The translations under genes and the position numbers were made by a program. The notes beneath the pieces were generated by a model. That model saw only the letters and a program-made list of their open reading frames with translations, was not told the DNA's origin and made no database searches. From positions 1-64,000 of the forward strand of contig WHVD01000150.1 in the NCBI GenBank assembly GCA_015178975.1: DNA of 64,000 nucleotides, given 5' to 3'. Below are positions 1 to 58,990 of this stretch, in pieces. Each line of letters opens with the position of its first letter. The first letter of the stretch is position 1. This DNA is from Hysterangium stoloniferum. Taxonomy: Eukaryota > Basidiomycota > Agaricomycetes > Hysterangiales > Hysterangiaceae.

Positions 1-3000
1 GAGCAAAGGTTATATGAAGCGGTTCATGGACTATCTATACAAGGACAAGTAAATAGCTCTGATGACGAATTGACTTTTGTTTCCATTTATGCGCCCAAGT
101 CGGAGACAAATTAGTAAGGGAGGAAAATCGAACGACTGGTGAAGCTCTTCTGTCTGAAGTTTATGTATCCATACTCCTGCAGATTTCTTCGAAAAGGGAG
201 ACCGGCTGAGTGCTCATCGGCAGGACCTTGAAGGCCTGACCGAGAACTACTGTCAGACTGGAGATTCTCACGAACAAATCAGTTCGAATTCGCTCTGTTC
301 GCCTGGAGCTGATGTTGACACTTTCCTGTTTGATCCGGGAACCCCCAATTTACTACCATACGAGAACTCGGATTCGGAGGACAGCGACAATGATCCAGTA
401 TTGGATTCCCCTTCGAAGCATGTTCCTTGCGAAGTGAGCACAGGAATGTAAGCTTGTCCCTGCGCAAGGAAAGTAAAAGGCCTCGAATCCAATACCCTCA
501 TCCCAGTCGTCTGATGAAGGAGGATACTACGATCCTTTATCGAAAACGGGATCCTCCCAGTGGTTACTCTAGCATAGGAGTTGCAGCACTCCATGTTTTC
601 GGTCATGTAGGAACTCCCGATTCACCCGAACGCGTTAAAATTCGAATGGACACAGGAGTGGATCTTTCCCTTATATCGGAGGAATTCTACAAGGAGCTTC
701 AGGGCATATATAAGTTGAAACAAGGACTCAAGTTATGTCTAATCCAGCTCACGGGTAACGCTAAGGTTATCGGATATGTTAATATTCCTATTTACCTGGA
801 GGACGACAGTGGAATGTTACTGAAGTTCGCGGCAGAAACCTATGTCGTTAGAGGAATGACGGTGCCAATTCTTTTAGGAGAAGACTTCCATATTAATTAT
901 GAAATTGGTACTCTAAGAGATCAGCCGTTGGGATCTAGACTTATTCTCCCGGGACGACAGGGTTTTATTCCAGCCAGTTCTTCTAAGGAACCTCAACCTT
1001 TGACCTTCACCGTCCAATTAAGGCCCTTTTGGGAAGCATGAGAAGGAGCAATCCAAACTCACCTCTCTCCCCGATAAAAGGTATGTGTACTGAAAGAGTC
1101 ACGCGAGCCTTGGAGGATTGCACTATCGATCCAGAGTCAGCCAGACTAGTGCCTATTTTTGTTGAAGATCTAGAGGGCGATGAATGGATTGTTGAAGGAA
1201 TTGTATTGCAAAACGAGGACGGTTCGATATTAGCCACACCAATCACGGCAATTTCAAGGAATAGTGCGGCAGTACCTTTAGCCAATCCATCGCTAACCCC
1301 TAAGACTATCCGACGAGGGGAGACAATAGGGATAATTCATGACCCCGCTCATTGGGCTCACAAGCCCAGGTCACTCGAGGAGAAAGGTTTAATGGTAGCA
1401 GGCGTGACCAAGATCGCACACCTTATCGAAAGTCTCTCTCAACTTGAGGAGGACCGTCAAGTCACCTCAGAGAGGCCTAAGCCACCTGTTGAACCAGAGA
1501 TTGCGGACAATTTCGAACCGCCTGGTCCTAAGACGGCTGCAGTGGCTGATAATGAGAAATTTGCCTCAGAGGATCTTCACAAGTTAGTCAATTTGGGACT
1601 GGATATACCAACAGAGGTCCTGCCACATCTCAGATCAGTTTTGACTGAGAACATTAAGACTTTCGGAGTCGACGGACGGTTAGGGCAAGTGGAATGTAGA
1701 GTCCCTGTCCCCTTGAAAGAGGGAGCCCAGCCCATATCCATGCCTATGTTCCCTTCGTCCCCTGCCAATAGGAGAGTTATAGACGAGCAAATGGATACCT
1801 GGTTCAAACAGGGTGTCATTGAGCCATCTAAAAGCCCCTGGGGAGCGCCAGCCTTTGTAGTATATCGCAATGGTAAACTGCGGGTGGTCATCGACTATCG
1901 GAAACTTAATCATCTCACTGTTCCAGACGAATTCCCTTTACCACGTCAATCGGAGATTATGCAGGCGCTGTCGGGGTCAAATGTTCTTTCTTCTTTCGAT
2001 GCGCTAGCCGGGTTTACTCAATTAGAAATGTTGGAGGACGATAAGCCCAAAACAGCCTTTAGATCCCATAGAGGGCTGTGGCAATTTAAAAGGATGCCAT
2101 TCGGGCTCAGAAACGGCCCCTCCACATTTCAGCGCGTCATGCAAACAGTTTTAGCACCCTACTTGTGGATTTTTTGTTTAGTCTACATCGATGACATAGT
2201 CATATTCTCTAAGAACTGGGATGATCATTTGCTTCACCTGAATCAGGTGCTTGGCGCTATCGCTTCGGCCAGTATCACTCTCTCTCCCAAGAAATGTTTT
2301 ATCGGATATAATTTGATATTGTTATTGGGTCATAAAGTATCCAGGTTGGGTTTTTCAACCCACCAAGAAAAAGCTCACGCTATATTGGAACTGGCCCCAC
2401 CCACTAAGGTTTCTGACCTACAACGGTTCCTTGGAATGGTCCTTTACTTTTCAGCGTATATACCATTCTATTCATGGATGGTGTCCCCTTTATTCTCGCT
2501 CCTAAAAAAGGGAACACCCTGGACGTGGACTGCTGAACATGTCCGAGCTTACGAGGATGTTAAAACCGCATTAGGATCAGCTCCAGTGCTGGGACATCCA
2601 GTTAGTGGGATGCCCTACCGATTGTATACGGACGCTTCGGATTTTGCCTTGGGTTGTTGCCTCCAACAAGTCCAGAAGATGGCTTTAGGAGACTTAGTGG
2701 ACACTAAAATCTATGCCCAAGCCAAGTTGGCTTTTGACCGTGCGCAGGATGTGCCATCCTTTGTTCATCGGTACAAAACCAAACAGCCCAAGATTGAGTG
2801 GTCGGATTCGTGGGGACCCACTTTGAGGCGACCGAAGTTACTGTTGAACAAGTCATTGCATATTGGAGTCGCACACTGAAAAGTGCTGAGCGTAACTATT
2901 CTGCTACTGAACGGGAAGCGTTAGCAGCAAAGGAGGGACTAGTCCACTTTCAACCTTTCATTGAAGGTGAACATGTTCTGCTCATTATGGACCATGCAGC

Positions 3001-4910
3001 TCTGCAATGGGCTAGATCTTACGAGAACACTAATCGTCGACTAGCCGCATGGGGGGCAATATACTCTGCATTTCCAGGTCTCGAGATTTTGCATCGAGCA
3101 GGGAGAGTTCACAGCGACGTGGATCCACTGTCCAGACTCCCTCGGGTACCAGCCTTTGTGAGCCCTATTAGAGATGATTTGCAGGCTATCACCTCGACCT
3201 CTCTGGACAAGAGTACTGAGGAAAAACTATGGAAGGATGAACCCGCTAAGAAGACAGTCTTCTCTACCATACTCAATTCTATGGAACCTTTCGGAGTAAC
3301 TCAAAAGGTCCGACAGTCAGAATGGGATTCTCATAACGCAATAAGGAACGACCAGGAAGACGAGTCTGACTTCGCATTGCGTCATCCTCAGCTACTAATC
3401 AGCATCGAGGAGGGATATATAAAGAAATTTCTAGAGGGTTATTCAAAGGACCCCATTTTCAGGAATCTCTACGCTCTAGATACCCCTTCACCCAATGCGG
3501 TTGTTACTCCTTCTCACTACTTTGTGGGAGCAAACCGACTCCTGTACTTTCGCGACTCGGACTGGAAAAGTCAAGTCTGTGTACCCAGAACTATGATTAA
3601 CTCGATTTTAAGGTTAGTACATGATAACCCTTTTGAGGGAGCACACGCCGGAGGCCAGCGGTTGTTCAACCTGATGAAAGACCGGTTCTTTGGCCAAGAA
3701 TGCTACAAGATTGCATGTCGTACGCGCGTACCTGCGACATCTGCCAAAAAACCAAAGTCGATCACACTGCTCGTCAAGGAGCCCTCAGACCGGCTGACGT
3801 ACCTTTTAGGCCATTCGAGGTAGTTTCTATGGACTTAATCACTGGACTACCCGACTCAGGAAAGGATTCGTATTCCGCAGTCTTCGTCGCCGTTGATAAA
3901 TTGACGCATTACGCTATTACAATACCTACCTTTTCGAACCTTACGGCTGAAGGATTCGCACGAATATTTGTCAAACAGGTGGCGAGCCCCTTCGGACTGC
4001 CCTCTCGAATAATCTGTGACCGGGATAAGAGATGGACCTGCAGGTTTTGGCGGGAAGTCTGTAAGATCTATGGTACCACCCTTGCAGTATCTTCGGCTCA
4101 TCATCCTCAAACAGATGGGCAAACGGAGAATATGAATGCAACCATAGAACAGATGCTTCGAGCCTATTGTGCTTCTGCTAAGGAAAGCTGGTCCCAGTGG
4201 ATTGAGGTAGTTGTTCACGCATACAACTCGACTGTTCACAGTTCCACAAACTACGTCCCGGCCTTCTTATTAATGGGATACCTTCCAAGAGGAATGTCTC
4301 AAGTCCTAGGAGGTGACGAACCCCTAGTTCCTAGAGAACTATCAGACAGCCCTATGGCCGACCAATGGATCCTCGAGCTAGAAAATCATCAGCAGATGGC
4401 GCGGGATTCAATCGCTCGAGCCCAAGAGATTCACGAGCGTATAACAAGAAGCAAAGACCTGTAGAAGATATCTCTGAGGGAGACTTTGTATTGGTGAACC
4501 CCCACTCCCTCGAACTGGTGGAAGTCAAGGGAACGGGGAAGAAACTAATACAAAGACGGATTGGACCATTCGAGGTCCTTGAGAAATTGAACTCTCAAGT
4601 ATTTAGGCTTAAGATCCCCCTGGAGTATCCGATGCATCTAGTCATTAATCGGGATCATCTGCGGAAATATCAACCCTCTCCTTCCAAGCTAGGTCCAAGA
4701 CCCCAACTTGAGAACCTAAGAGAGTTGAAATCAGATCATGAAGAATATGAAGTCGAAGCTATTGTTGGACATAGGAAACAGCGAAATTGTCTGCTATTTA
4801 GGGTGCGCTGGAAAGGTTATGGACCCGAAGAGGATTCGTGGTTAAGCAGCACTGACCTCAGAAATGCTCCGGCACTTCTGAGGGTGTACAAGGCGCTGTT
4901 CAACATTTAA
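1..4910 (+). pseudogene. gag-pol remnant with chromodomain (element 1)
   Basis: Fossil polyprotein region. The aspartic protease core lies near 640-700 (Asp-Thr-Gly followed by DLSLIS). Reverse transcriptase spans about 1680-2400, with the YIDD catalytic box near 2190 and PFGLRNGPSTFQ just before it. RNase H lies at about 2600-3130 (YTDAS start), integrase at about 3650-4400 (HHPQTDGQTE near 4100), and a chromodomain at about 4735-4900 (VRWKGYGPEEDSW). It is close in sequence to the pol of element 2 although their LTRs differ. The frame is interrupted a few times, so it is not expected to work. Confidence 0.92.
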
Positions 4911-5150
4911 CGGGATATATGCACTCAAGGAATCATCTATTCTATCATTTATTCCATCTCTTTCGTAACTTCCTTTCAGAAATATCTCAGTTATTCAGTG
5001 AGCCATCTCATTGGCTTTTATTCTCTTTCATTTTTCTATCCCTCTGGTCGATTGGGACAACCACTAATTGGCGGCGGACACATTTCCCCAAAACCTGGCC
5101 ACAATTAATGAATTTTATTTAACGACCAACCGAGCGGAGTTTCAATTCAA

Positions 5151-5160
5151 TATATATAAA
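5151..5160 (+). promoter_or_regulatory. TATA-like box before third coding region of element 1
   Basis: TATATATAAA lies about 110 bp before the first Met of the third coding region and after the end of pol. The same place in element 2 (33051-33060) holds TAATATAAAA, and the DNA just before it is alignable between the two elements (ACCGAGC-GAG). I infer a separate internal promoter for the third gene; the sequence alone does not prove transcription. Confidence 0.4.
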
Positions 5161-5267
5161 AAAGTACACGTAAATGCGCATAAATTTTCTTTATCTTTCA
5201 CACCACGTCCTTCACCTATCTACAGCCCTTCCCTCTATCTTCAACTTCACCACTTTATTGTGCTATA

Positions 5268-7388
5268 ATGCTCCCTTTCCAACAAAACAAGCAAGTCCTC
5301 CCTAAGTTCAAAAAGGTCCCGCGAGCCCCGACAGCCAGTACATCCATGACCGGTGGGGGATTCATCACCTGTGTGCCTCATACAGACAATGTCGAGAGCA
5401 ATCGGGGTACCCAAGAATCAACCCCCCTGTCGACTTTCTCCTTTGGTGATGAGCCGGGGGGAAATACCGGTACAGATTGGAGCAAGCCGTTAGGCCCCTC
5501 CGTCAGACTGTCATCTGAGGAAGTCGCTGCTATCATGCGGAAGCAGGAAATGTTTATGGAAGAACACAATGCAAGGAGGCTCACTCGCAAAAGAGAAAGG
5601 CGTGCTGAGTATAGAAGTCAACAGGAGGCGAGGGGAGCAAGAGAAGGAGTCCCCTCCAAGTGGCAGCGGCGTGAGTACAGAGCGCAATTCAGAAACAGAG
5701 CTTCCGCGCCGATCCTTCCCCCCCCGGGAGAGAAATGGGCCGACTTCATGGAGACCGATGATAGTGAGGGTGGGACGCCTTGTATTAGGACGACGGGAAC
5801 CAAGAGCTGGAAGGAGAAGGAGGGTACCATCTTTTATGACTGGGAACTACTTTGACGCATTAAGTTGCAATGAATAGTTCTTACCTGAGGGGACGGTCAA
5901 ATGTTGCCCCAGCGAGAAAAAGAATACTGTAGGGGACCAATTGATTTTTCCTCGGATGAGGATGAGGAGGAAGACGAGAACAGGAATGGTGTGTATAGCA
6001 TCCGATCTCTGGGAGAGGATTGCCATGAAGGGTTCCTTCTCCCGTCTAAAGTTCGCTTCATAACCAGTGACCCCAACCAAAGACAAACGCGGAGACCATC
6101 ATCCAGAGTATGGAGGGGTCACCACCATAGTCAACAGTCACTGGAACGCGGACCTTCCACGATTCCGGTCCCACATCTTTCGCCAACGTCGAGGCCCCTT
6201 CCCATCATTCACCCTACACACACTCCCTCAGCCCCGATTCTAACGCCTCATTTACCTCCCTCTCCAAAAGCTGTACCGGTCCCAACCTCACTTAGGATGT
6301 CGAGGCCCCCTCCCATCCTTCACCCGGCACACACTCCCTCAGTCCAACGCGAACCTTCCCCGATTCCAGTCCCATGTCTTTCACCAAGGTCGAGGCCCCT
6401 TCCCGTCCTTCTTCCGGCACGCACTCCCCCAGCCCCGATTCTGGCGCCTCGTCTCTCTCCCTCCCCGAAAGCTATACCGGTACCGACCCAACTTCCGCCG
6501 TCACCGGGTATCCCTCCCGACTCTCCGTATTCATATTGCATGTCCTTGGGTAGCCCTATCCAGGACCTTCCACCAGAGCGAATGGATGTCGATTTGGACC
6601 CTCCTACACTGGACGTCATCGATCTCATGGCACGCAGAAAGGTGAAGGAGATGCAGAAAGCCACCACTCCTCTCCGAGAACAATCCCCTATTTTCGTCCT
6701 CGACAGCCCACTTCCCCTCACTGAGCCCATATCCACAACTTTCTGGATGCGAGTAGCTGTCAACTACCCTTCCGAACAGTTTCCTGTCAGAAGGGTGCTA
6801 TCACAGCTCGTGCCAGTACTTCAGCAACCGGTCCTTCAAGGGAGCCTTAAGGGTTGTTGCGGTCTGGCTCCGTTGTCGGAGATAATGGAGGATTTCTATC
6901 TCTCCTTCGAGGATCTCGCAGAGGGGAAGAACTTTGCGCGAGCAGCACAGGAGATTAAACTCTCTATGTTCCGGCACATCATAGTGGAGCTTCACCATCT
7001 GCCCCCAGACTCAGCGAGTGTCCTCTCTATTGCTGGCTTAGTAGATTTACTTGAGGCCCTCATCCTGACACCTCCCACAGAGACCACCATGCAGCCACAC
7101 GTTCCTGCCCTGCTGCCCACGTCTTCGTTTCCCCTCCCCAATGCTCCTCTTCTCACGCAGATTTCCGCTCCACCGGTTAGTGTCTGCGCAGTCGTTCGTT
7201 GCAGAGAGAAAGCCTACAGACGATGGGCCGACTCCTTGTACAGGAATTCTAGTGATTTGGCTTGGGCGAGAATAGCCGAATCTTTCAGAGTAAAAAGGGA
7301 ACGATGGGGAAACATCATTTTGGACCTTGGGGGATCCTCACAGGAAGCTTGGGGCGGTGTCCCAGATGTTCTTCGACACCTAGTATAG
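5268..7388 (+). pseudogene. Third coding region of element 1, unknown function
   Basis: Reading frames occupy nearly all the space between the end of pol and the 3' LTR. The N-terminal part opens with a basic Lys/Pro-rich stretch (LPKFKKVPRAP), followed by a charged Arg-rich segment. The middle is extremely Pro/Ser-rich with repeated 'PRPLP..HPAHTP' blocks at about 6130-6500. The C-terminal end, right beside the purine tract, has KAYRRW and then LGGSSQEAWGGVPDVL. Element 2 has a counterpart at 33135-35607 with the same ends and a differently worded middle. I see no signal peptide, membrane segment or enzyme motif and do not recognise the family. It is not a typical env. It has about one or two breaks. 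Confidence 0.7.
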
Positions 7389-7413
7389 CACATCCCTTCG
7401 AACTGGGGGGCAC

Positions 7414-8057
7414 TGTAAAGGGTATGCATATATGCATAATTAGACTAAGGAATAATAGTTGGATTATAGTACTTTATTATTTATCTTTTATTTTCTTTCT
7501 TTACATTCTTTCTATATTTCGAGCATACCTTTATTTTGTAGTTCGAAGCTTTGTGTATATGTATGGGCGCTCTTGGCGCCAAAACGACAGACACTTTTTA
7601 CCCAGCAGACACCACCTCGTAAACGACCCAGACGTCGAATAGCGAGAGGTGTCAAGGGTAACGTCTCAACTACCTATAAAGGTAGTATTCTCTCGCATAC
7701 TAACGTACTTTGGACTCGAACCGCGAAGGTCGAGTTCCACTCTAAGGTCTTTGTGCTAGTCGACATTATAGTCGACTCGCGCTATCATCTCTTTACTCTA
7801 GATATTCAGCTTCGCGTTGATTATCTATTTTACATCTAGCTACGAGTTGTACCGTGAAGGTCAACTCTTTCATTCTTTCATTCTAGCCATCAAGAGCAAC
7901 TGTACAGTTGCTCTTGTGACGCATAGCATGTCTTCTTACTAGTACTGCTTGTCTAGTAATCTACGGTATTGTACTGTACGGTCAATACCTGCTAATAGTA
8001 GTTGAATAAACACTATTCTTCGTATATCGAACGGTCAGAATCTATCGACTCTTCATA
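7414..8057 (+). repeat. 3' LTR of element 1 (LTR family 1)
   Basis: The 644-bp LTR starts TGTAAAGGGTATGCATATATGC directly after the purine tract and ends with ACTCTTCATA, where related copies end in CTTCACA. Solo copies in the opposite direction at 21465-22106 and 27294-27939 fix both borders. The copy at 27294-27939 looks roughly 93-95% alike by eye. Confidence 0.9.
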
Positions 8058-8360
8058 CTACTGCACTCGTCAATACCACTATTGATTCATGCCACTCTCA
8101 CTCTTCCTTAGATAATTGATACCTTCTTGATTATCTTTCCTTTCTCACATGGTGAGTTGTACCAGAATGGTCAACTCCCCTATTCTCTTCACTAGCCATC
8201 ATGAGCAACTGCACAGTTGCTCTAGTGATGTGTATCATGTCTTTCTACTAGTACTATTAGTCTAGTAAGCTCTAGTGTCGTACTTGATAGTCGATACTTG
8301 AATAGCCAATATTCTTTGTATATTGAGTGGTCAGAATCCAATGACTCTTTGTCAGATTAT
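8058..8360 (+). repeat. Diverged fragment of LTR family 1
   Basis: This stretch repeats, with many changes, the second half of the adjoining LTR: GAGTTGTACC, then GTCAACTC, then a variant of GAGCAACTGTACAGTTGCTC, then the closing TGGTCAGAATC. It is an older relative beside which, or into which, element 1 inserted. Confidence 0.6.
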
Positions 8361-8487: not shown

Positions 8488-8560
8488 GGTCAGATGGTGT
8501 AGTGATTAACACCTTTGTTATGTAATCGAGAGATCCTGGGTTCAATCCCCAGTCTGGCTA
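8488..8560 (+). tRNA. tRNA-Thr(UGU)-like sequence, possibly a pseudo-tRNA or SINE head
   Basis: Exactly 73 nt fold as a cloverleaf. The acceptor stem is GGTCAGA with TCTGGCT (two G-U wobbles). The D arm is GTGT/ACAC with an A-box-like TGGTGTAGTGATTA. The T arm is CTGGG-TTCAATC-CCCAG, and its B box reads GGTTCAATCC. The anticodon loop TATGTAA would give UGU (Thr). Against a working gene: position 33 is A instead of the near-universal U, and the anticodon stem has two wobbles and one mismatch. A TTTT run follows within about 7 nt, as for RNA polymerase III termination. It sits among LTR debris, so a decayed tRNA or SINE head is possible. Confidence 0.6.
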
Positions 8561-24172: not shown

Positions 24173-24802
24173 TGTGAGAGGTATGGCGAAATACACTCAG
24201 GAAATATAGTCGGATGAGCTCTTACTATATTTCCTTTATTATTTCTATTTTCTCTCTTTTATTATATCTATAATTAGTTCGACGACCTATGTATGTGGTA
24301 CATCGACTCTTGTGGGCGCACACACGCCAGACTTATGTATTCTAGCGCCCGTAGTTTAGAACTCAGACACTTTTTACACCGCAACCACGACTTACCCAGA
24401 CACCCATTAGTGTCCTGTAAGTTGTGATTGGTGTATCGTCTCGACCGTCATAGACGGGCTTTAGCTATCTACTCTATCAGAGTTTCGAACTGTACCAGTC
24501 GAAACTCAATCCTTATTGCTACTCATGTGGACCACATCCATGCTATTCTATTATTCAACTCTCTAGTACTCTACTCTACTTTTGAGCAGTCGTTCAGAAT
24601 TGCACTAGACAGTCGATTCTACTTATTCGTTTTAGCTCTCTACCTTATTCTAGATAGCTACTTCCTTCTACTGTATTGAACTGAGTAGTCAATATGCATT
24701 CATTCTGTATTAGACTTCGACAGTCAATACATCTTAGTGTCGTACCTAAACGGTCGATATTCTTCGTATATAGAACGGTTAGAACTTCCACTACTCTTCA
24801 CA
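24173..24802 (+). repeat. 5' LTR of element 2
   Basis: Starts TGTGAGAGGTATGG and ends CTACTCTTCACA. The next bases, TGGTGATCCGGGC from 24804, have the form of a primer-binding site, but I cannot name the tRNA. Several sites that are CpG in the 3' LTR are TpG or CpA here. Confidence 0.9.
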
Positions 24803-24878
24803 GTGGTGATCCGGGCTGGACCGCTCTTTCCCTACGAAGAAAAACATTTATTTCAACTATGAAATTCTAAGCACGTAA

Positions 24879-27240
24879 ATGACCACTGGCAAGAACCAAA
24901 CGCCGAAATCTTCGATGAACCCGAGTAGTTCAAAACCTCGTCAAAGACCTGCAAGTCTGGAACCACCCCGTAACGTCACCATGAGGAAGTCTTCATTGAC
25001 TTTCCAAAAACCAGCTCCTCCCGGAAGTTCCATTGAAGCAGTAGCTGGACCGTCAATGGATGCCCCTCCAAGTCCACGAGAAGAACATCCGTCAACTGAG
25101 CAGTTGAACATCCCCGGAGCTAAGGTTGAAACTACCCATGCTCCTGAACCCATTCTCTCGTTCCCGCCTAAACAGGTCATCCTTAAGCAATTCTTTAGGG
25201 GTCATATGATTTACGCCCAGCCCATCGACTTACAATGGGATGTGTACTACGCCGACCGAATTTCTACGGATCATGTTACTCCCTTCATGGAGGAGTACAA
25301 TACGGACCACCCCCTCTTACCGGTGACTGTAGCAGTCTGGTTAGGTCGTTATCAGGCTATTTTATCAGTGCAGGATCTATTCTTACGACCTGGAACCCTT
25401 GAGGACTTGACTCGCTCGATTCCCGAATGGTCGAGTGAAGTTACTTCTGTTATGGAAGGAGGGAGGATGGTTCTTAAACAAGAGGTGTTTTCTTCATTCC
25501 TCAAAGCACTCCGCACGCACGATGACGCGTTACAAATCCTTCACGTCCTACTCAGTGGGGATCACATCGTCCCTAAAGTCGACTACCAGTATATATACAT
25601 TCGGATGCTGGAGGAGTCTCTTAACGGGATTAGTCGGAATTCTTCATTTGCGTATTTTACCTTAAGGGGTCGGTTAAGGCGAAATCAGAGAAGACTCGAT
25701 AAGATGGTTTTGGAAGTGCTTTACCCTTATGGTGATTCCATCCAGGTACCTGATTTGCCCATCTCCACAACCAGCTCGTTTGTTCGTACCCTGAATGGAT
25801 CTCCCGACACTCGTTTCCTTCATTCGCTCAATCGTCCCAATATTTTGCAAGACTTCCCATCGGACATGAGGATGCAAGTTGCGGAATGTCTTCAGGAAAA
25901 AGGAATGGAAATATGCATCCCCCTCTATCAACCTCAACCTCGTTGACCTTTGAATACGGTTGAAATCAAGAGAGGGATCGCGACAGAACCTAGCCCTACC
26001 CCCCATCAGGAAATTCACCGCTCTCGCGTCGCGTTCGAACGAATCCCTGGTAATACGAACATAGGTGATGAACCAACTACGACTAGGAATCGATCAGTCG
26101 CCAACACGGGTCGACCGTCTTTCTCCACTGCATTCACCGAGGGTATAGCTGGTCAGGTTGCTGGTCGAGGATCGCTGAATCCAGTCGACCCTCGCCATTC
26201 CCTCCCGATCTCCTCCAACCCTTTTCTGCCATCAGGAGGACCTCCTAGTAATTCATCTGGGAGTTCTAGTACCTCAAGCTATGGAGGGAATTCGGGACGT
26301 GGGGGGCGTCACGGTAGAGTACCTAACTCTCCCTTTCAAACTCCGATGCAGCCTCGAGCCAGCGCGCCTATCGATGACTTACCTAAGGATAAAAGGATCG
26401 CCCTTAACACCAACGACATCAAGATCAAATGGTCAGACCTTCCCGAATACGATGGGACTCAATCCAAGGCGTTGGATTACATCATGGATATTATGAGCCT
26501 CTCGGAGATCTCTGACTCCATGAGTACATTGTTGGGAGTCGCTCTGCCAAGATGACTCACCGGCGGTGCTAAGATCTGGTGGAGCACCCTAGACCGTGAA
26601 CATCACACTGAATTTAGTCGATCTCACGGATCGTTTCTTTGGGGCATCATAGAAGGATTACTTGGAACTCGTTGGCGCGAATCCTTGGCTCTAGAATGGG
26701 AAGCCATGAAATTTCGACAGGCTGGTCACAATCATGAGACACCCGTTCATTACATTCAGCGAAGGGTCAAGCTCTATCGATTCTTGTACGGGTTCCACCA
26801 AAACTGGAAGGACGAAATGCACAGACTTATCCTGACACTACCCACGGAATGGCTTTATCTTCTACAGGGACAACCTATCGACGACATCATGAGCCTACAG
26901 ACTTACATGAACAATTTACAAGAGGCTCTGATTAACGCTTGGGTTCAAACACATCGAGAACATTATCAGTTTCAGAAACCCAGAGTCATGATCGCCGAGC
27001 AAGACGAGTCGGATCCCTGGCATGAGGAGGAGCACTCTGGAAAAATTGACTCCACTAATCGAGGCCACGTCCTCCTCAGCGAACTCGAGGATAAAACCGT
27101 CCCTAGGAGATCGAACGCTAAGCAGGGTAAGAAACACGGCAAGTTCTTTTTTGAATGAGGTGACAAGAAAAGCATCGCCAAGCCTCTGAAGGAGTGTTGG
27201 ATTTGTGGGAGCTTAGAGCATTTCAAGATCGACTGCCCCC
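24879..27240 (+). pseudogene. gag remnant with zinc knuckle (element 2)
   Basis: The frame opens at a Met at 24879 with a Ser/Pro-rich, basic N-terminus. A long helical region follows, then a Ser/Gly-rich linker near 26230-26300. A capsid-like segment runs from about 26400 to 27000 (LEWEAMKFRQAGHNHETPVH). A CCHC zinc knuckle, CWICGSLEHFKIDC, lies at 27195-27236. This is an unusually long gag for Ty3/gypsy. Broken in a few places, and its end is cut off by the nested LTR. Confidence 0.8.
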
Positions 27241-27293
27241 ATGCGGGCAGGATGTCACACTATATCTCTATTAACAAGTGCTCCGTGCAGAAC

Positions 27294-27939
27294 TGTGAAG
27301 AGTCGATAGATTCTGACTGTTCGATATACGAAGAATAGTGTCTATTCAACTACTATTAGCAGATATTGACCATACAGTACAATACCATAGATTACTAGAC
27401 AAGCTGTACTAGTAAGAAGACACGCTATGTGTCACAAGAGCAGCTGTACAGTTGCTCTTGACGGCTAGAATGAAGGAATGAAAGAGTTGACCTTCACGGT
27501 ACAACTCGCAGCTAGATGTAAAGTAGATAATCAACGCGAAGTTGAATATCTAGAGTAAAGAAATAATAGCGCGAGTCGACTATAATGTCGACTAGCGCAA
27601 AGACCTTAGATTGGAACTCGACCTTCGCGGTTCGAGTCCGAAGTACGTTAGTATGCAAGAGAATACTACCTTTTAAAGGTAGTTGAAACGTTACCCTTGA
27701 CACCTCTCGCTATTCGACGTCTGGGTCATTTACGAGGTGGTGTCTGCTGGGTAAAAGTTGTCTGTCTCTTTTGGCGCCGAGAGCGCCCATACGTATACAC
27801 AAAGCTTCGAACTACAAAATCAAGGTGTGCTCGAAATATAGAAAGAATATAAAGAAAGAAAATAAAAGGTAAATAATAAAGTACTATAATCCAGTTATTA
27901 TTCCTTAGTCCAGGTATGCATATATGCATACCCTTTACA
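27294..27939 (-). repeat. Solo LTR family 1 nested in element 2, AGAAC target duplication
   Basis: A 646-bp reverse copy of the element 1 LTR (TGTGAAGAGTCGATAG ... GCATACCCTTTACA). It is flanked by AGAAC at 27289-27293 and AGAAC at 27940-27944. Element 2 coding sequence continues on both sides, so this insertion is younger than element 2. Confidence 0.93.
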
Positions 27940-30900
27940 AGAACCCAATGGAGGAGGCGGAGGATCAAAGGGCTTATGAAACGGTTTATGGATTAAGTGT
28001 ACAGGGACAAGTACATAACATTGATGAGGAATCGATTTTCATTTCTGTCTACCTTCCTCAGCCAGAGGACAACATCGTTTCAGACATGAAAGCATCCTCG
28101 AATGAGAACGAGACATCGCAAGTTTATGTTTGTATATCAGACCATGATTTTCTTGAGAAAGGAGACTGGCTAGACGCTCATCGTCAGAACCGTGAAGGTC
28201 TGACTGAGACGAGAGTTTTATTGTGACCTGAACCTCCCACCATTGAGGAAATCGTCGACGAGGACACATTTGCGAACCGATCTAAGGAAATAAGTCAAAC
28301 CTACATTATAGAAGACCCCTCTGAGTCAGAGGGATCGGAGGAGGAGAGCTTCCCCTTTGACCCAGGGCAATTACCCGACTTGATTCCTTGCGATGAGTCA
28401 GACTCTGAAGCGGACGACTCTATTTCGAACGCTCCCAAGGTACCTAACGGTAGACGTATCAGGAGGAACATCAAACTGGCTGCAAGAAAAGAAAGCAAAA
28501 GACCTAGAGTTCAATACCCCCGATCCAGTCGACTTATGAAAGAGGATTCGACTATTATCTATCGCAGAAGGGACCCTCCGGGTGGATATTCCAGTATTGG
28601 GATTTCAGCATTACACGTCTATGGATGCGTAGGGAATTCAGAAGCCTCAAATCCTATTAAAATCAGGCTGGACGCCGGAGCTGACCTCTCCTTAATCTCG
28701 GAGGATTTCTATAAGGAACTAGAGGACCGCCCTAAACTCAAGCAAGGACTCAAGCTGCGCCTCATACAACTTACCGGTAATGCCAAAGTATTAGGATACG
28801 TCAACGTCCCCATTTATCTCGAGGACGACACCGGTATACTCCTCAAATTTACTGCTGAGACGTATGTTGTCCGAGGTATGACCGTCCCGATCCTTCTTGG
28901 AGAAGACTTTCACGTGAACTATGAGATCGGGACACTGCGAGACCAACCCCTGGGTTCCAGATTGATTTTGCCTGGGAGAGCAGGATCTATTCCAGCCAGT
29001 TCTTCCAAAAAGCCGCAGCCTTTAACCTTTTCGATTAGCAAGATCCCCTTTGAGGAATTAGCCAATGACTCGTCTGAATTGACTTCCAAACCAGACAAAG
29101 GAGTGCATACTGAAAGAGTCACATGGGCCTTACAAGATTGTACTATAGAACCGGAATCAGCTTGATTAGTACCAATCTTTGTAGGAGATCTTATTGGTGA
29201 CCAATGGATAGTCGAGGGAGTTGTCTTGCAGAACGACGATGGGAGTATACTAGCTGCTCCCACCACTGCCATCTCTAGGGAATGTGCCGCGATACCTCTC
29301 ACTAATCCCTCTCTGACGCCAAGAATCATCAGACGAGGGGAAACCGTTGGATTAATTCATGACGCGAACAAATGGGCCCAGACTCCTAGATCTTTGACTG
29401 AGAGGGCATCAATGCAGTCGACAGCAACTAAGATCGCCCATCTCGTCGAAAGTCTATCAAGAATAGAAGAGGAACGTGTCCTTAATCCTCAATCTTCCAG
29501 GCTGCCCCTGGAACGGGAACTCGCAGACGATTTCGACCTGGCAGGCCCCAAAATGTCAGAAGTTGCCACCACGGAAACGTTTCATGCAGAAGATCTGCAT
29601 AAGCTAGTTAATTTAGGTCCTGACATCCCTACCGATGTCTTCTCCCACTTGGAGTCAGTATTAACTAAGAACATCCTAGCTTTTGGAGTAGACGGGCGTT
29701 TAGGACAAGTAGATGTCAAGGTCAATGTCCCCTTAAAAGATGGCGCACAACCCATTTCAATGTTAATGTTTCCAACCTCCCCGGCTAATAGGAAAGTCAT
29801 TGACGAACATGGACACTTGGTTCCAACAGGGAGTGATTGAACCGTCCAAGAGTCCTTGGGGGGCGCCAGCCTTTGTCGTCTATCGCAATGGGAAACCACG
29901 AGTAGTGATTGACTATAGAAAGTTGAACAGCCTAATGGTTCCTGATGAATTTCTGCTGCCGCGTCAATCGGAAATCATGCAGGTGCTCTCGGGATCCAAC
30001 ATCTTATCTTCTTTCGATGCACTAGCTGGTTTTACCCAACTTGAAATAGTTAGAGGAAGATAAGCCGAAGACAGCCTTCAGATCCCATTGAGGACTGTGG
30101 CAATTCAGGAGAATGCCTTTGGACTTCATAATGGACCTTCTATATTCCAAAGGGTTATGCAAACCGTACTTGCACCCTACTTATGGATATTCTGCCTAGT
30201 TTATATTGACGACATCGTGATCTTTTCTAAGACATGGGACGATCATCTAGAGCATTTGGACCAGGTCCTACAAGCCATCATTGCAGCGGGAATCACTCTC
30301 TCGCCCAAAAATGTGCTACATGGGGTATAATTCGATTCTACTACTAGGACATAAGGTGTCTAGACTCTGGCTTTTCGACCCATCAAGAAAAGGTCGCTGC
30401 TATATTGGAATTAGCCACACCTTCTAAGATAGCAGACCTTCAACATTTTCTTCGGAATGGTTCTGTACTTCTCTGCTTACATACCATTCTACTCCTGGAC
30501 GGTTGCTCCTGCTTTTCAACCTCTTAAAGAAAGGAGTTCGTTGGCATTGGGATTCAGAACACGCCCGAGCTTTTGAAGACATCAAAGTTGCGTTGAGTTC
30601 AGCTCCAGTACTTGGACACCCTGCGAGCGGTATGCCTTATAGGTTATACACAGACGCTTCGGACTTCGCGCTGGGATGTTGCCTCCAGCAAATACAAAAA
30701 ATGACGCTTAAGGACCTAAAGGATACGAAAATTTATGCCCAAGCAAGGACAGCTTTCGATCAATCACGAGACGTCCCCATTTTTGTTACTCGTTATAAAA
30801 CCAAGGAGCCGGAATTCACCTGGACGGATTCCTGGGCCGCAGATTTTGATGACACCAGTGTCACAGTCGAACACGTTATCGCCTATTGGAGCCGTACACT

Positions 30901-32939
30901 CAAGAAAGCGGAATGTAACTACTCAGCCACAGAGCGAGAAGCGTTAGCTGCTAAAGAAAGATTGGTCCATTTCCAGCCCTTTATCGAGGGAGAACATGTC
31001 CTTTTGATCACTGACCATGTGGCATTACAATGGGCCAGATCTTACAAGAATACTAATCGTAGACTGGCCGCATGGGGGGCGGTATACGCTGCATACCCCG
31101 GTCTGGAAATCCTACATAGAGCAGGACAGATACACAGCAACGTTGACCCATTATCTAGACTTCCTCGAGTACCTGACTGTGCTAGCCCCGTGAGAGACGA
31201 TCTCTTACCAATCGTAGCGGACTCTTATAACCGGAATGACAACGAGACATTATGGGAGAACAAACCAGCAGAAAAGGCCATCTTTCTCACTCATCACGAG
31301 TTAGTCAAACCTGTCGGAACAGTCAAAGAGGTCCCCCAAACGAAATGGGACTTGCACAACCTTCCCAGAAACGATGAGACTGATGAGGCGGATTTTACTC
31401 TCTCGAATCCACAATTGCTTATAGAGATCGATGAGAATTATGCTAAGGAACTTCACGATGGATACCAGAAAGATCCCGCCTTCAGGAATTATTACGCCGC
31501 CGATCCCATTTCTCCAAACATGGTAGCCACTCCTTCACATTATTTTATCGGCAAGAATAAGCTATTGTTCTTTCGAGATTCGGACTGGAAAAGTCGAATC
31601 TGCGTTCCTAGCAGCATGACGACAACCATACTCAAGCTGATACATGATAATCCTTTCGAAGGAGCTCATGCAGGCGGCCACAGGCTTTTTAATCTGATGA
31701 AAGACCGTTTCTTCTGGCCGAGGATGTTGCATGACTGCGTGGCGTACGCTCGCAGCTGTGACATATGCCAGAAAACTAAAATTGATCATTCCGCTCGACA
31801 AGGAGCTCTTTGACCCACGGATGTACCCCTAAGGCCGTTTGAGGTTGTCTCGATGGACCTGATTACCGGATTGCCTCCTTATACAGAGGGTGGTTATTCT
31901 GCCATCTTCATCGCCATGGATAAACTCACGCGTTTCTTAATCTGTGAACCCACTACTTCAGATCTATCCGCAGAAGGATTCACGCGAATCTTCATGAATA
32001 AAGTAGCCGCTCCTTTTCGGCCTGCCTTCAAGGATAATCTGTGATCGAGACAAGAGATGGACCTGTAGGTTCTGGAGAGAAGTCTGCAAAGTATACAGAA
32101 GTGCCCTTGCAGTATCCTCGTCCCACCATCCTCAGACCGACGGTCAAACGGAGAACGCTAATGCAATTGTGGAGCAAATGCTCAGAGCGTACTGCGCCTC
32201 TTCGAAGGAGGAATGGTCTAAATGGACTCAAGTAGTGGCTCATACCTACAATTCGACGGTTCAAAGCTCAACAAGCTATGCGCCGGCCTTTTTGCTGATG
32301 GGCTACTTACCAAGAGGAATGTCTAGCTGTCTAGGAGGGGATGACCCTCTGGTCCCCAGAGAATTATCGGATAGCCCTGTAGCCGACCAATGGATCTTAG
32401 AATTGGAAAATCACCGACAAGCAGCGCGGGATTTGATTGCGCGAGCACAAGAAACCCAAGCTCGCAGTTACAACAAGAGATGGAGATTAGTGGAAGATAT
32501 CTCAGAGGGGGATTATGTTCTGAATAATCCCCATTCTCTCGAGCTTGTCGAAGCCAAGGGACCCAGAAGAAAACTTATACAAAGCCAGATAGGGCCATTT
32601 GAGGTCTTGGAAAAGATCAATCCTCAAGTCTTCTGACTCCGCATTCCCTCGGAATATCAATTACATCCAGTGATTAATCGAGACCATCTTAAAAAGTACC
32701 ACCTCTCCCCTAAGGAATTCAGATCCAGGGAGCTACTCGAGAACCCTCGAGAACTCAATCGTAACGATGAGGAGTACGAAGTAGAAGCTATAGTAGGGCA
32801 CAAAAAGCATCAAAATCGACTCCTTTTCCAGGTTCGATGGAAAGGATATGGACCAGAGGAGGACACTTGGTTAAACGGCAATGACCTTCGTAATGCTCCT
32901 GCTCTTCTTAGAGCTTACAAGACTATTTATCGAATTTAA
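27940..32939 (+). pseudogene. pol remnant with chromodomain (element 2)
   Basis: In order: an acidic linker; a protease (ADLSLISEDFYKEL near 28680); reverse transcriptase with YIDD near 30205; RNase H (YTDASDFALG near 30645, then a long open stretch to about 31810); integrase to about 32400; and a chromodomain at about 32770-32930 (VRWKGYGPEEDTWL). It follows the element 1 pol closely. Several breaks; a fossil. Confidence 0.9.
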
Positions 32940-33050
32940 TGATCATTTCACATCCTTACGACGACAACACTGTTTATCTACTTCTAGCTCTACCCCCCCA
33001 CTTTCTTCCCCCTCAGCCTTTCACTTCAATAACCGAGCAGAGCTTGAAAT

Positions 33051-33060
33051 TAATATAAAA
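33051..33060 (+). promoter_or_regulatory. TATA-like box before third coding region of element 2
   Basis: TAATATAAAA lies 75-85 bp before the first Met of the third coding region, in the same place as TATATATAAA of element 1. The neighbouring bases are alignable between the two elements. A promoter role is inferred. Confidence 0.4.
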
Positions 33061-33134
33061 TATGTAAATTTGCTAAAGAAAATTTTATTCCCCCTATCTC
33101 TTCCCTCCACGTCAACCTCTCTAATCAGTACACT

Positions 33135-35607
33135 ATGTCGCAGGAGCAACAACCCAAACCCAAGTTCCCCAACTTCAAAAGAATACCGCGACCTCAACCT
33201 ACTAATACCTCTACCACGCCATCTCGCACTGAACAAGTCGAGCACTCCACGAGTAATTCTGGAACGCCTTTGCCAATACCCTCCGCTACGCAGGGTGACA
33301 TCGTGGGAACGTCCACCAACTCGGGGAACGGAACCACCTTTACTCCATACGCTCCTCTTCCCAGACCCCGATTTCCCAAATTTAAAAGGATACCTCGACC
33401 TCAAACTATAGTTCCTTCTGCCCCATCACCTCGAACAGAAACTGTCGAGCGCGTGGAGGAGAGAGACCTCATCGTCCACGAATCCTACGCAAACGGACTC
33501 CGTTTCAAAAGCTGCACCATGGTCCTCTGATACTTGGGGGGCTCCCTCGGGAACATGGAGCAAAACCTCACCACCTTCTCGTAGTATTTTCCCTTCTACC
33601 GAAGAGGAGATCAAAAAGAAATGGCAGTCTGAGGCTTTCTCCGCGCAGGTTCAGGAGGAATTGAAAACGCTTAAATGGAAGAGGAGAGAGGAGTACTTGG
33701 AAGGACAGCGGAGGATGGGGGCTAGGGATAATGTCCCTTCAAGGCGGACACGGCAGGAATGGAGGAAAATGGAAGGGCACGATAATCCTTCAATCATCGC
33801 TCCCCCTTCAGGTCATAAATGGACAGATTTCGCTGAAACGGATTGCAGCGACGGGGGCATGCCATGTGTTCGGAGTGTAGGACAAAAAAGTAGGAAAGGA
33901 AAAGATGGGGTCACCTTCTACGATTGGGACAAAGTACGAAGGATCAAATTACAAAGCATTGCATTGCGACGTGGAGATGGAGTTGCATTACCTCCCAGAC
34001 CCCTTTCACAACGTGGACCTCAGGAACGGACCTACCGGATGGGGCCCGGTGATCTTTCATCTGACTTGGAGGACAACCAATCTCGCTACCCCACCTATGA
34101 CAGCAAGTACCTCGGTGCTGACTGCCATGAAGGTTTCCTACTCCCTGACAACATTCACTTCTTCACGAGTGATCCTAACCAACGACGAAAGCTACCAACT
34201 TCCGTCAGAGTTTGGAGAGGGTATCGTCCAGCAGACTCTGCAACCCCATCCACTTCCTCTCATCTCCCTCCACCTCCACCGGTCTCTTCTGTACCCACAT
34301 TACAGCGCTTTACACCCTTTTCGGAGCTACCAGGAAGTCTTGTACCATCCTCCGAGCTGCCTTCTCTTCCCCCTATACCACTACCCCTCCCCTTCGCAGG
34401 TCATTCTCTTATATCACCGTCCTCATCCATACCCAAGCCTCCTCCAGCACTGCAGCCAATCTCACCCCTCTGCACGTCACCTGACCCTCTCGTCGCCTCC
34501 CACTCTACTCCAACGCCTTTGGTCCCTGCGGTGTCTAACATTCCCCTCACTTCCTTGACAACGCGGAGTCCACCGCCTGCCTCTCCCTACTCCCCTTGTA
34601 TTTCTCTGGGAAGCCCCATTCACCATCCTAACGATACATTAATGGATATTGATCACCCTATCCCGGAAGTTCTCGCAATGCCTATGGAGGAAGTCCTCGA
34701 AGCACCTCTCTCAGCCATAGACGTCTCCAAGGAACCCCCCCGGGCAATGGAAGCCTTCGAGGAGCCTCCCCCCTTAAGCGAAAAGGCAAAAGGGAAACGA
34801 AGAGCCGATACTCAGGCCGACAAGCCCCTTGTCATGGACCCCCCCCCAGCCCACCCCATTCGCAGCCCCCCGCCGCAGCCGTCCTCTCCCCTCCACTCTG
34901 AGGATACGGCTGGCCCCTCCAGTCCCTTCCAGTCAAATTGGATGCACGTGTCCATTAATTACCCCTCCGACATCTTCACTGTGGGACACACATTAATGCG
35001 ACTGGGACCAACCCTGCGGCACCCCCTTCTTAAAGGGCATATCCAGGGGTATAGCGGGTCTCTCACATTGTCGGACCGCATGAGCGCATTTTATTTATGC
35101 GTCAACGACCCTAAGGAACAGCTGCGTTTAGCGGAGGATATCGAACGGGTGGAACTTTCCATGTTTCGGTCCTTACTTGTCAACTCTTCTTGTGTTCTTC
35201 CTGACCACACACCAACCCACTCTGCAGTGGACCTCGTTGACTTGTTGGAGCAACTGTTGCCAGATTCGGACACCTCGAGAGGAATCCCCTCTGGGGGAGA
35301 CATGAGCTCCACACCGCTCATCACTCCTACCCCGCCATCACTACACCCTCGACCCCCTCTCATTGCCCGTATAACTGACGCTTCCGCTGATCGCGTTTGC
35401 GCCATAATTCGAACACGCCAGAAGGCCTACAGTCGTTGGGTCTCGTCGATCCAAAAACTAGATGGGTTGACATCCGCCAATGACACTTCGAGGCGGGAGG
35501 ACATCGCTCTTTCCTTTCGTGCCAAGCGTCTCGCCTGGGGCAACGCTATCCTACACCTTGGGGGTTCATCACAGGACGCATGGGGAGGAGTTCCAAGCGT
35601 CCTTTGA
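33135..35607 (+). pseudogene. Third coding region of element 2, unknown function
   Basis: Counterpart of 5268-7388. The N-terminus holds two copies of an FP-FKRIPRPQ motif, one near 33165 and one near 33370. An Arg/Lys-rich segment follows, with WTDFAETDCSDGGMPC near 33825. A long Pro/Ser-rich middle comes next, then a conserved C-terminal half with NYPSD-F-VGHTL, RTRQKAYSRW and, beside the polypurine tract, LGGSSQDAWGGVPSVL. Most of it, from 33661, is one open frame of 648 codons, which is notable in an otherwise worn element. No known domain recognised. Confidence 0.7.
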
Positions 35608-35644
35608 CATCTTCTTTGACATAGCTCTTCAACCTGGGGGGCAC

Positions 35645-36274
35645 TGTGAGAGGTATGGTGAAATACACTCAGGAAATATAGTCGGATGAGCTCTTACTAT
35701 ATTTCCTTTATTATTTCTATTTTCTCTCTTTTATTATATCTATAATTAGTTCGACGACCTATGTATGCGGTACATCGACTCTTGTGGGCGCACACACGCC
35801 AGACTTATGTATTCTAGCACCCGTAGTTTAGAACTCAGACACTTTTTACACCGCAACCACGACTTACCCAGACACCCATTAGTGTCCTGTAAGTTGTGAT
35901 TGGTGTATCGTCTCGACCGTCACAGACGGGCTTTAGCTATCTACTCTATCAGAGTTTCAAACTGTACCAGTCGAAACTCAATCCTCATCGCTACTCGCGT
36001 GGACCACATCCACGCTATTCTATTATTCGACTCTCTAGTACTCTACTTTACTCTCGAGCAGTCGTTCAGAATCGCACTAGATAGTCGATTCTACTTATTC
36101 ATTTTAGCTCTCTACCTTATTCTAGATGGCTACTTCCTTCTACCATATTGAACTGAGTAGTCAATACGCATTCGTTCTGTATTAGACTTCGACAGTCAAT
36201 ACATCTTGGTGTCGTACCTAAACGGTCGATATTCTTCGTATATAGAACGGTTAGAACTTCCACCACTCTTCACA
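35645..36274 (+). repeat. 3' LTR of element 2
   Basis: Directly follows the polypurine tract CCTGGGGGGCAC. 630 bp, same length as the 5' LTR with no gaps seen. Ends CCACTCTTCACA. Confidence 0.9.
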
Positions 36275-36652
36275 CTGTGTTCCTAACAAAATCCCGGAAC
36301 GTATTCAACCTCCATCCCCTCTGGTCATTATTGATGGAGAACCTGAATTTGAAGTTTCCGAAATTTTGGATTCTAAAATTGACAATCGCCGACGTACTTG
36401 TAAATTGCTCTATTTAGTCAAATGGGCAGGCTATGAAGATACCGACGAGGAGACTTCATAGATATTGGCCATGGAACTTAGACATGCTATGGAAATTGTT
36501 ACTGACTTCCACACGGCTTATCCAAGCAAACCCGGACCTTTATCATCACTCTAACCCTTTTCTGTTTTCTTTCTGTTCAGTTTCCGACACTCCCGACACT
36601 TCCGATATCACACTCATTTTAGGTTTTGCAAGTCAAAAAAATATTATTAGGA

Positions 36653-42757: not shown

Positions 42758-43610
42758 GATGTTTCTGCTATAACATATTTTGGTTTACTATTCTGCAGAA
42801 AAGCATAAACAAATTGCCAATAGTGATGAAGGTGTCATCACTGGACTTGTGGGTTACTGTATATGGCAATGTACTGCTCAAATTTGAAAAATCCAATTCT
42901 CCTATGAAAGGGGTATTAAAAATAATATGAGTTGACTTATTGTCATACACAATCTACAAGGGGTTTAATAGACTTGTAATAGAAGTACTTGTGTGTCAAT
43001 CAATATGTCAGTGAATCACCTTCTAACATTGTAGGTTTGGTGCAAACTTAGGTGTACATAGGTGAAATCATGCATTAGCCTCCAAAAACATGGCTCACAA
43101 TTTGCATTTTCATATAAAAAGTTGAAGGAATAGGTGAACTGCCCCTAGGAGAAGGGTGTTTCATCATCATTTCCAACAAGGGGCAGGCAAGAGTGTTGGA
43201 TCTGCATCAAGGGCGAGGACAATGAGAGGGTGAAGAGCTGCTTGTTATCTCACCATGATCTCCAATGTCGCTGTGCTCATCAACATTATACTTACCGTCA
43301 TGATGGTATTTTACCTAAATGTCTCTGTCAGAAATCCTGCTTGAAATAGTCAGTGGACATCAACATCTTACTTCATATTCTCCACACATCCATAGCAACT
43401 TGACTCCTTTAAAGATGGCATCACTGCTATCATGTCAGCCCTCATCGGAATGGATTAGAGAGTATTTGCAACTAATAATTATCAGCTCTGGAATGATCTG
43501 GACATCAACTCCGCCTATTATTTATTGTCAATCAAAATATTTCCCAATGTGTGACCTAAAATGTGACAGCTGAGTCTCCAAACCAGGCTCTTTACCCTAA
43601 CAGACATGTT
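42758..43610. other. Non-coding, about 850 bp
   Basis: No gene or second repeat copy recognised. It may include the left end of the PIF/Harbinger transposon, whose terminal repeats I could not find. Confidence 0.4.
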
Positions 43611-44094
43611 CTCAAGGCCATCACCTCGTGTTCCAGTGGTCCCTAATGAGTTCAACCTGTCCCCTCTGTTTTCTATGCTAGCTGACTCTTTTCTGAGGCT
43701 GTCATCACATTTTCCAGTTTTCTCAGTGCATCCAAACCATATCCCTTCTTCCTAATCTAACACACATTTTCTCAAGGCCATCACTTCGTGTTCCAGTGGT
43801 CCCCAGTAAGTTCAACCCATCCCCTCTGTTTTCTATGCTAACTGACTCTTTTCTGAGGCTGTCATCATGTTTTCCAGGTTTCTCAGTGCATCCAAACCAT
43901 ATCCCTTCTTCCTAATCTAACACATGCATTCTCAAGGCCATTACTTTGTGTTCCAGTGGTCCCCAGTAAGTTCAACCCATCCCCTCTGTTTTCTATGTTA
44001 ACATATGTATTCTTTTCTGAGGCTGTCATCACATTTTCCAGGTTTCTCAGTGCATCCAAACCATATCCCTTCTCTCTAATCTAACACGTGTCTG
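43611..44094 (+). repeat. Tandem array, three units of about 160 bp
   Basis: Units begin CTCAAGGCCATCAC at 43611, 43771 and 43931. Each runs through TGTTCCAGTGGTCCC, TTTTCTGAGGCTGTCATCA and CAAACCATATCCCTTCT. The units are about 93-95% alike. The third has a small insertion. The array lies just before the SANT/Myb-like gene of the transposon. Confidence 0.9.
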
Positions 44095-52498: not shown

Positions 52499-58937
<6,439 letters not shown>

Positions 58938-58976
58938 AACGGGGAGGAAGTAAGATATAATACTTTGTATTCACCA

Positions 58977-58990
58977 TATATATATATGGG
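58977..58990 (-). promoter_or_regulatory. TATA-like tract of the ABC transporter promoter
   Basis: CCATATATATATATGG lies about 40-50 bp before the start codon on the minus strand and is mirrored in the right palindrome arm near 59407. The short distance to the ATG leaves little 5' UTR, so its role as a TATA box is only possible. Confidence 0.35.

Follow-up and report, generated by a model that had tools for sequence, protein, structure and literature searches.

LTR retrotransposons with a third ORF, fungal chromoviruses among them, are already in print, and such genes are therefore not new in kind. In a study of the chromodomain Gypsy elements of 25 fungal genomes, an 'add. ORF' of unknown function is given in the legend of Figure 3, and element lengths reach more than 13 kb (PMC2864245). 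In the passages of that source used here this ORF comes without sequence, selection test or promoter, and it can be likened to the gene described below (ORF3) by description alone. In plants, an extra ORF that is conserved throughout the family lies between pol and the 3' LTR in the elements Grande, RIRE2, Retand, Athila and Bagy2, and DNA binding has been suggested for TRP28 of Retand (PMC7264820, PMC11963269). The ORFs of Grande, RIRE2 and Retand are antisense, whereas ORF3 is sense; the same two sources, in the passages used, describe the ORFs of Athila and Bagy2 as env-like and in sense orientation. These elements also belong to another host kingdom, and ORF3 has no detectable domain. The LTR elements of bdelloid rotifers carry additional ORFs as well (PMC5408684).

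An internal promoter was proposed for the ENV-like gene of the Sireviruses, which also lies ahead of the 3' LTR; these are plant Ty1/copia elements, and in the passages of PMC2829016 used here the promoter is not conclusively identified, whereas a conserved TATA block is visible in our case. Foamy viruses express their regulatory genes Tas and Bet apart from gag-pol from a second, internal promoter, although they are vertebrate retroviruses with an env gene, within which this promoter is located, and Tas acts on the LTR (PMC12789967). In yeast Ty1, a fungal LTR element of the Ty1/copia type, an internal transcript, Ty1i, serves for a separate regulatory protein, which inhibits the element (PMC5834202). 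The CERV protein of Cer1 in C. elegans is an extra, divergent LTR-retrotransposon protein with no obvious homology outside nematodes according to the passages used; it is nuclear, and export of the genomic RNA requires it, but it is made from a 5-exon spliced mRNA that shares the gag exons, and its likeness to ORF3 is one of mode of working only (PMC10309623).

The present case bears on two points about third genes in LTR retrotransposons, namely their mode of expression and their role in hosts for which an envelope would be of little use. A literature search by title and abstract (without supplements and most subscription journals) gave no report of ORF3, nor of any fungal Ty3 element whose third gene has an internal promoter, and neither was found in the passages used of PMC3411680, PMC3248453, PMC5348765 and PMC10627285. 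What is new here is that the third protein is an orphan, under selection and apparently soluble, and that a conserved putative promoter block stands ahead of its gene.

The window, that is the whole stretch of 64,000 nucleotides of Hysterangium stoloniferum DNA that was analysed, contains two elements of this kind (Table 1). In the pol of element 1 the Pfam domains follow each other in the order RVT_1, RT_RNaseH_2, rve, SH3_Tf2-1 and Chromo (the last with E 2e-10, window 4365-4907), which makes it a chromovirus, i.e. a chromodomain Ty3/gypsy element of the Metaviridae. Its ORF3 is separated from the end of pol by a spacer of 357 nt and ends, with the C-terminus LGGSSQEAWGGVPDVL correctly quoted by the initial annotation, 25 nt ahead of a 3' LTR that is 93.6% identical over 655 columns to an antisense LTR elsewhere in the window. 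That annotation, made from the sequence alone, had also described more than 2 kb of coding sequence after the chromodomain; a region of 2.1 kb is indeed present, although in this copy it is interrupted by three in-frame TGA codons.

Table 1. Features of the two elements in the window, with the evidence on which each was placed
Feature	Position	Strand	Basis
Element 1, last part of gag followed by pol (RT, RNase H, integrase, chromodomain)	1..4910	+	Pfam, frames; 5' end outside the window
CCGAGCGGAGTTTCAATTCAATATATATAAA, conserved block that includes the TATA box; putative internal promoter for ORF3	5130..5160	+	Alignment, genome pattern
Pyrimidine-rich leader, presumed transcription start and 5' UTR	5161..5267	+	Sequence, identity of block and leader
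ORF3 of element 1 (706 codons), interrupted by in-frame TGA at 5853, 5871 and 5886	5268..7388	+	Frames, homologues, omega
ORF3, N-terminal basic conserved region, codons 1-300	5268..6167	+	Omega 0.18-0.28, pI
ORF3, Pro/Ser-rich faster-evolving linker, codons 301-490	6168..6737	+	Omega 0.46-0.58; 21-26% Pro
ORF3, C-terminal conserved domain, codons 491-706, ending GGSSQ(D/E/A)AWGGVP..L	6738..7385	+	Omega 0.20-0.31, alignments, 150 scored copies
Polypurine tract of element 1, ACTGGGGGGCAC	7402..7413	+	Sequence
3' LTR of element 1, first letters TGTAAAGG	7414..8066	+	LTR match at 27285-27939
Element 2, layout as element 1, LTRs 24173-24812 and 35645-36283	24173..36283	+	LTR pair
Putative promoter block of element 2, TATA-like TTAATATAAAATA	33033..33062	+	Alignment, genome pattern match
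ORF3 of element 2, with a single frameshift (near 33462)	33135..35607	+	Related copies: single frames of 820-828 codons

Element 2 repeats the arrangement, as had been claimed: it has its own pair of LTRs (mutually 95.8% identical over 640 columns), an ORF3, and a TATA-like box at the matching place, TTAATATAAAATA, against TATATATAAA at 5151-5160 in element 1. The G run of the polypurine tract also precedes its 3' LTR. The two ORF3 products share 36% identity over 681 columns, rising to 41% in the C part, while the chromodomain regions reach 67% (165 columns); ORF3 thus evolves faster than pol, yet the two are clearly homologous. Against more distant copies of the element 2 type the identity of the element 1 ORF3 goes down to about 31%.

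Both elements belong to a large family. We searched the genome assembly (111 Mb) for copies of ORF3, and as only the best candidates were scored the counts are lower bounds. With the conserved C-terminal segment of element 1 as query, a search that the initial annotation had suggested, at least 150 scored copies (of 952 candidates) were found, each at least 85% identical, and a hand count gave a stop-free frame of at least 700 aa in 24 of these 150. At least 40 scored copies are 95-100% identical to the 3' part of the ORF3 in the window. The protein of element 2 gave at least 75 matched stretches, 65-100% identical, in 68 scored candidates of 2396. Intact genes exist for both types, with single frames of 680 codons in L049 and L050 (element 1 type) and of 820-828 codons in L014, L011, L025 and L055 (element 2 type). 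A third, element-1-like subfamily (L065, L066 and L068; 69-89% identical, depending on the stretch) was reached through the promoter block described below, as was L067, a relative of the element 2 type at 60%; L050 and L066 are 74% identical over 682 columns. The family therefore spans at least three subfamilies and at least 150 copies within the source genome, and a sense accessory ORF between pol and the 3' LTR is conserved across it, as the initial annotation had anticipated.

Since both window copies of ORF3 are broken, and homologues outside the elements were not found in the protein database search, it might be argued that the frame is a chance one, or the fossil of a host gene that was captured and is carried along passively. 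Comparison of the ORF3 of elements 1 and 2 speaks against a chance frame, because their differences are strongly biased by codon position in all three parts (p 1.8e-10 in the N part, 8.6e-13 in the middle and 8.8e-13 in the C part). Taken singly, some close or fast pairs do not show this bias significantly (element 1 with L050, p 0.22 in the N part and 0.28 in the middle; in the middle also L055-L062, p 0.13, L062-L063, 0.21, and L062-L064, 0.052).

Omega, obtained from codon-wise comparisons anchored by tblastn, points the same way. Between element 2 and four relatives it was 0.11-0.19 in the N part, 0.37-0.52 in the middle and 0.15-0.22 in the C part, and in six pairs of element-1-type copies with the third subfamily it was 0.18-0.28, 0.46-0.58 and 0.20-0.31, respectively. 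Fisher p values for the N and C parts in both sets of pairs ranged from 3.7e-8 to 2.7e-24, and for the N region in the six pairs from 6.1e-12 to 8.3e-23. A wider set, which took in pairs with element 1, element 2 or L055, had outliers with omega up to 0.57 (N), 0.97 (middle) and 0.39 (C), these maxima all coming from L055-L061. For the element 1 type against the element 2 type no omega is given, because synonymous sites are saturated (pS about 0.8). The chromodomain, taken as control, gave 0.05-0.31, lower on the whole, with L058 as an outlier (0.53 and 0.76). Both ends of ORF3 are thus under purifying selection, and the Pro-rich middle evolves faster (omega about 0.4-0.6).

Within subfamilies, the ratio of nonsynonymous to synonymous variants (N/S) was lower for variants shared by at least two copies than for singletons, namely 1.31 against 2.15 among 39 copies of the element 2 type (p 7.5e-6) and 1.08 against 1.92 among 14 copies of the element 1 type (p 1.8e-3). 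By segment the contrast was significant in the middle (7.0e-4) and C part (0.031) of the element 2 type and in the N part of the element 1 type (4.4e-3); it was not significant in the N part of the element 2 type (0.18), in the middle (0.32) and C part (0.40) of the element 1 type, or with transversions only in the element 2 type (0.085). The chromodomain control showed the same contrast (1.77 in singletons against 0.81 in shared variants, p 0.021). The pattern fits what would be expected of selection while an element replicates actively and of drift once a copy is inserted.

A chance frame, which the initial annotation had named as the outcome that would speak against its reading, is excluded by the homologues, the codon-position tests and omega. 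Taken together with the fossil of a host gene, it retains practically no likelihood in view of the strong purifying selection between subfamilies and the stop-free frames in other copies. Judged from these comparisons, ORF3 is to be regarded as a genuine gene, the third in this Metaviridae lineage of chromodomain Ty3 elements.

The product of ORF3 ranges from 680 aa in the element 1 type to 828 aa in the element 2 type. The basic N-terminus and the Pro-rich middle that the initial annotation had noticed hold for six full-length proteins, in which the pI is 9.4-10.1 over the first 200 residues, Pro makes up 21-26% of the middle and the C-terminal 220 residues have a pI of 5.4-8.7. The basic N-terminus contains Lys/Arg runs. 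Stretches conserved in the N part include LG.DCHEGFLLP, TSDPNQ and RVWRG, and those in the C part LSMF, LVDLLE and GS.Q.AWGGVP.

As a sense ORF positioned between pol and the 3' LTR, ORF3 might encode an env-like membrane glycoprotein. In a hydropathy scan, an N-terminal hydrophobic stretch was found in none of eight proteins. The best mean over 19 residues was 0.92-1.27 in the five proteins of the element 2 type and 1.73-1.89 in the three of the element 1 type. A cut-off of 1.6 is often used for membrane helices and is a crude one; the element 1 type exceeds it, but two of the residues in its top stretch are acidic, and the stretch falls within the conserved C-terminal domain. N-glycosylation motifs numbered 0-2 per segment examined. 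Therefore, in agreement with the initial annotation, the scan revealed no clear membrane or env signature of the sort that marks env-bearing elements (errantiviruses, Athila-like), having found neither a hydrophobic N-terminus that could serve as signal peptide nor a convincing membrane helix, and we consider an env-like glycoprotein highly improbable.

Database searches gave no homologue. In Pfam no family scored above its cut-off (UCMA, at E 0.14-0.24, was far below its own), in NCBIfam there was no match at E 0.1 and among PDB sequences none at E 1; an enzyme domain of the dUTPase, GDSL or DEDDy exonuclease type was not found in these three collections. In a database of 5.8 billion proteins, neither the 1640 candidates scored for the C-terminal domain nor the 7981 scored for an alignment of eight rows included a homologue at E<=0.01. 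Of 7987 candidates for the RT of the element, which served as control, at least 2681 matched at E<=1e-10, the best at 58% over 84% of the query, and these included Agaricomycetes such as Mycena, Candolleomyces, Phlebia, Ceratobasidium and Rhizoctonia. The RT neighbours, like 18 hydrophobin matches at E<=0.001, indicate that the host is most likely an Agaricomycete. As ORF3 diverges faster than pol, a word-based search may miss its relatives, and 'orphan' here means undetected. In viral contigs no match was obtained for ORF3, RT or integrase. The possibility of a gag paralogue was also tried and rejected, since the probability that hhalign gave for similarity with two gag pieces from the element itself was at most 0.1 on its 0-100 scale.

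The TATA-like boxes of the two elements are part of a longer conserved block, with the consensus ACCGAGC(G/A)GAG(T/C)TT(C/G)AA(T/A)T(C/T)AATATA, then A/T, then a T/C-rich stretch. Local alignment of the two spacers scored 31, whereas shuffles preserving dinucleotides had a mean of 19.7 (sd 2.5) and a maximum of 30, so that none of 1000 shuffled pairs reached the observed score. Of 49 copies whose upstream sequence was long enough, 47 had the TATA core, and the other two, L034 and L057, gave no block (the set leaves out eight loci duplicating other places, as well as copies with no start located or with less than 160 nt upstream). As a 25-mer pattern with up to two mismatches, the block has 471 matches in the genome and its reversed control has none. 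An ORF3 homologue lay downstream at all four places that were fetched, which had been picked for rarer block variants among the matches listed (100).

The block and the leader are more alike than the preceding spacer in 10 of 10 comparisons, which are not independent of each other, with p<0.05 in six. Between element 1 and three copies of the third subfamily, block and leader agree at 95/101, 96/101 and 85/91 positions and the upstream sequence at 158-160/194. The TATA-containing block is kept even between subfamilies whose synonymous sites are saturated, and its conservation makes it the candidate for a second promoter ahead of this 3' accessory gene.

We consider it probable, from the conservation of the block, that RNA polymerase II starts there in integrated copies and produces a separate short mRNA ending in the 3' LTR; ORF3 would then be made independently of the gag-pol genomic RNA. 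Spliced third proteins are described elsewhere, for Cer1 CERV (PMC10309623), the ORF3s of bdelloids (PMC5408684) and barley Bagy2 (PMC7264820), and it could be supposed that this ORF3, too, is real but is expressed from a spliced subgenomic RNA of the 5' LTR, or by reinitiation, the block having another role or being a relic. A CAG is indeed found 8 nt ahead of the ATG in nearly all leaders of the element 2 type, mostly as AATCAG followed by T, with L063 lacking the AG, and this leaves splicing some plausibility for that type. In the element 1 type the chief candidate is an AG at 44 nt before the ATG; L053, L049 and L052 lack it, and in L066 it is altered. L049 and L066 nevertheless have a long stop-free ORF3 (712 and 662 codons from stop to stop, respectively) without it. 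No acceptor AG common to all subfamilies was found within the leader, whereas the TATA block is common to them and contains a TATA box with a T/C-rich stretch behind it. Expression by splicing or reinitiation therefore seems rather unlikely to us, the internal promoter being the more probable route.

The explanation that we favour, with some reserve, is a genuine third gene with its own internal promoter and a soluble product that handles nucleic acids or has a regulatory role. The nature of the product is the more tentative part: from its apparent solubility, its basic N-terminus and the selection acting on it, we infer that it may be soluble and partly nuclear and may serve its own element by handling nucleic acids or as a regulator; this would be the 'new accessory function' that the initial annotation suggested as possible. 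AlphaFold2 gave pLDDT values of 41.7 (C part) and 33.8 (N part) on the two window rows, too low for use, so that no predicted domain backs nucleic-acid binding.

A structural or particle-associated protein, such as a second capsid, a matrix or an RNA-packaging protein, would also be consistent with some of these properties, given that the basic N-terminus, the Pro-rich linker and a C-terminal domain that is helical in a low-confidence model might fit a matrix- or nucleocapsid-like layout. ORF3 shows no profile similarity to the two gag pieces, however, and a promoter of its own would be odd for a particle protein; we therefore judge a structural role unlikely.

Under the regulatory reading, the LTR promoter would drive gag-pol and the genomic RNA, and the internal TATA promoter would drive ORF3, with a common end in the 3' LTR. 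The product may relieve silencing, tune LTR transcription, or export or package the genomic RNA, a design that would resemble that of foamy viruses with their two promoters, or of Cer1 with its CERV protein. The parallels with Tas, CERV and the Ty1i product, models whose function has been tested, are analogies of working and not claims of kinship. The Ty1i product derives from Gag, at the 5' end of its element. In element 1 the block and the LTR share two T-rich 9-mers and in element 2 none, and as none of these motifs is convincing an action of ORF3 on the LTR is not supported; transactivation is one option among several.

A full programme of two promoters, in which the LTR gives the genomic RNA and the TATA promoter an orphan regulator of the family's silencing, transcription or RNA export, is a possibility that we put forward with more doubt than confidence. 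If it were true, it would represent a complete accessory transcription unit in a Ty3 element, independent of retroviruses, and should the product be an anti-silencing or RNA-export factor this could partly explain the high copy number of the family. The promoter candidate is short and conserved, matches genome-wide at the number of places given above and stands ahead of a clearly selected gene; because many closely similar copies of ORF3 exist, the question can be tested by mapping RNA 5' ends.

The leaders differ in some details. Most copies of the element 1 type have about 120 nt between TATA and ATG, and most of the element 2 type have 85 nt. Among 45 leaders counted (L034 and L057, with no block, and L059 and L064, with a misplaced ATG, being left out), 28 are free of upstream ATGs; the other 17, those of both window copies among them, carry one or more, which speaks against the favoured reading. 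In L066, another sequence sits between the block and the ATG.

The gag region of element 2, a Ty3/gypsy element related to the chromodomain element found at the start of the window (element 1), occupies a single reading frame that is broken by stops, leaving open stretches at 24879-25946, 25950-26555 and 26685-27158. When the first 355 aa of this gag and the piece at 26685-27155 were scanned against Pfam, no match was obtained. This region also encloses, in antisense orientation, an LTR belonging to the family of element 1, which is apparently a solo LTR. The element 1 family was therefore mobile after the insertion of element 2.

Among the matches retrieved across the assembly with the protein of element 2 ORF3, the third gene between pol and the 3' LTR in both elements, most stop codons were TGA, TAG and TAA being fewer. 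This abundance of TGA suggests that silenced ORF3 copies may have undergone C-to-T mutation, either via CpG methylation or by a RIP-like process.

By eye, the sequence immediately downstream of the 3' LTR of element 2 (36300-36475) resembles the chromodomain end of a different Ty3 pol. The remaining features of the window comprise tRNA genes and repeats (table), and the two arms of the inverted repeat possibly correspond to two LTRs or to oppositely oriented copies.

Features located in the element 2 gag region and elsewhere in the window
Feature	Position	Description
tRNA-Thr(TGT)	8488-8560	~420 nt downstream of the 3' LTR of element 1
Element 2 gag region	24879-27158	
LTR of element 1 family	27285-27939	antisense; 93.6% identity to the 7414-8066 LTR
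Tandem repeat, 160-nt unit	43597-44090	~3 copies, 93-94% alike
Inverted repeat, ~1 kb	46893-47901 / 62464-63488	five pieces, 89-95%; spacing 14.6 kb
Palindrome, 700 bp	58846-59546	arms 282 nt (90%) and 69 nt (97%); loop 9 nt
tRNA-Leu(GAG)	63900-63973
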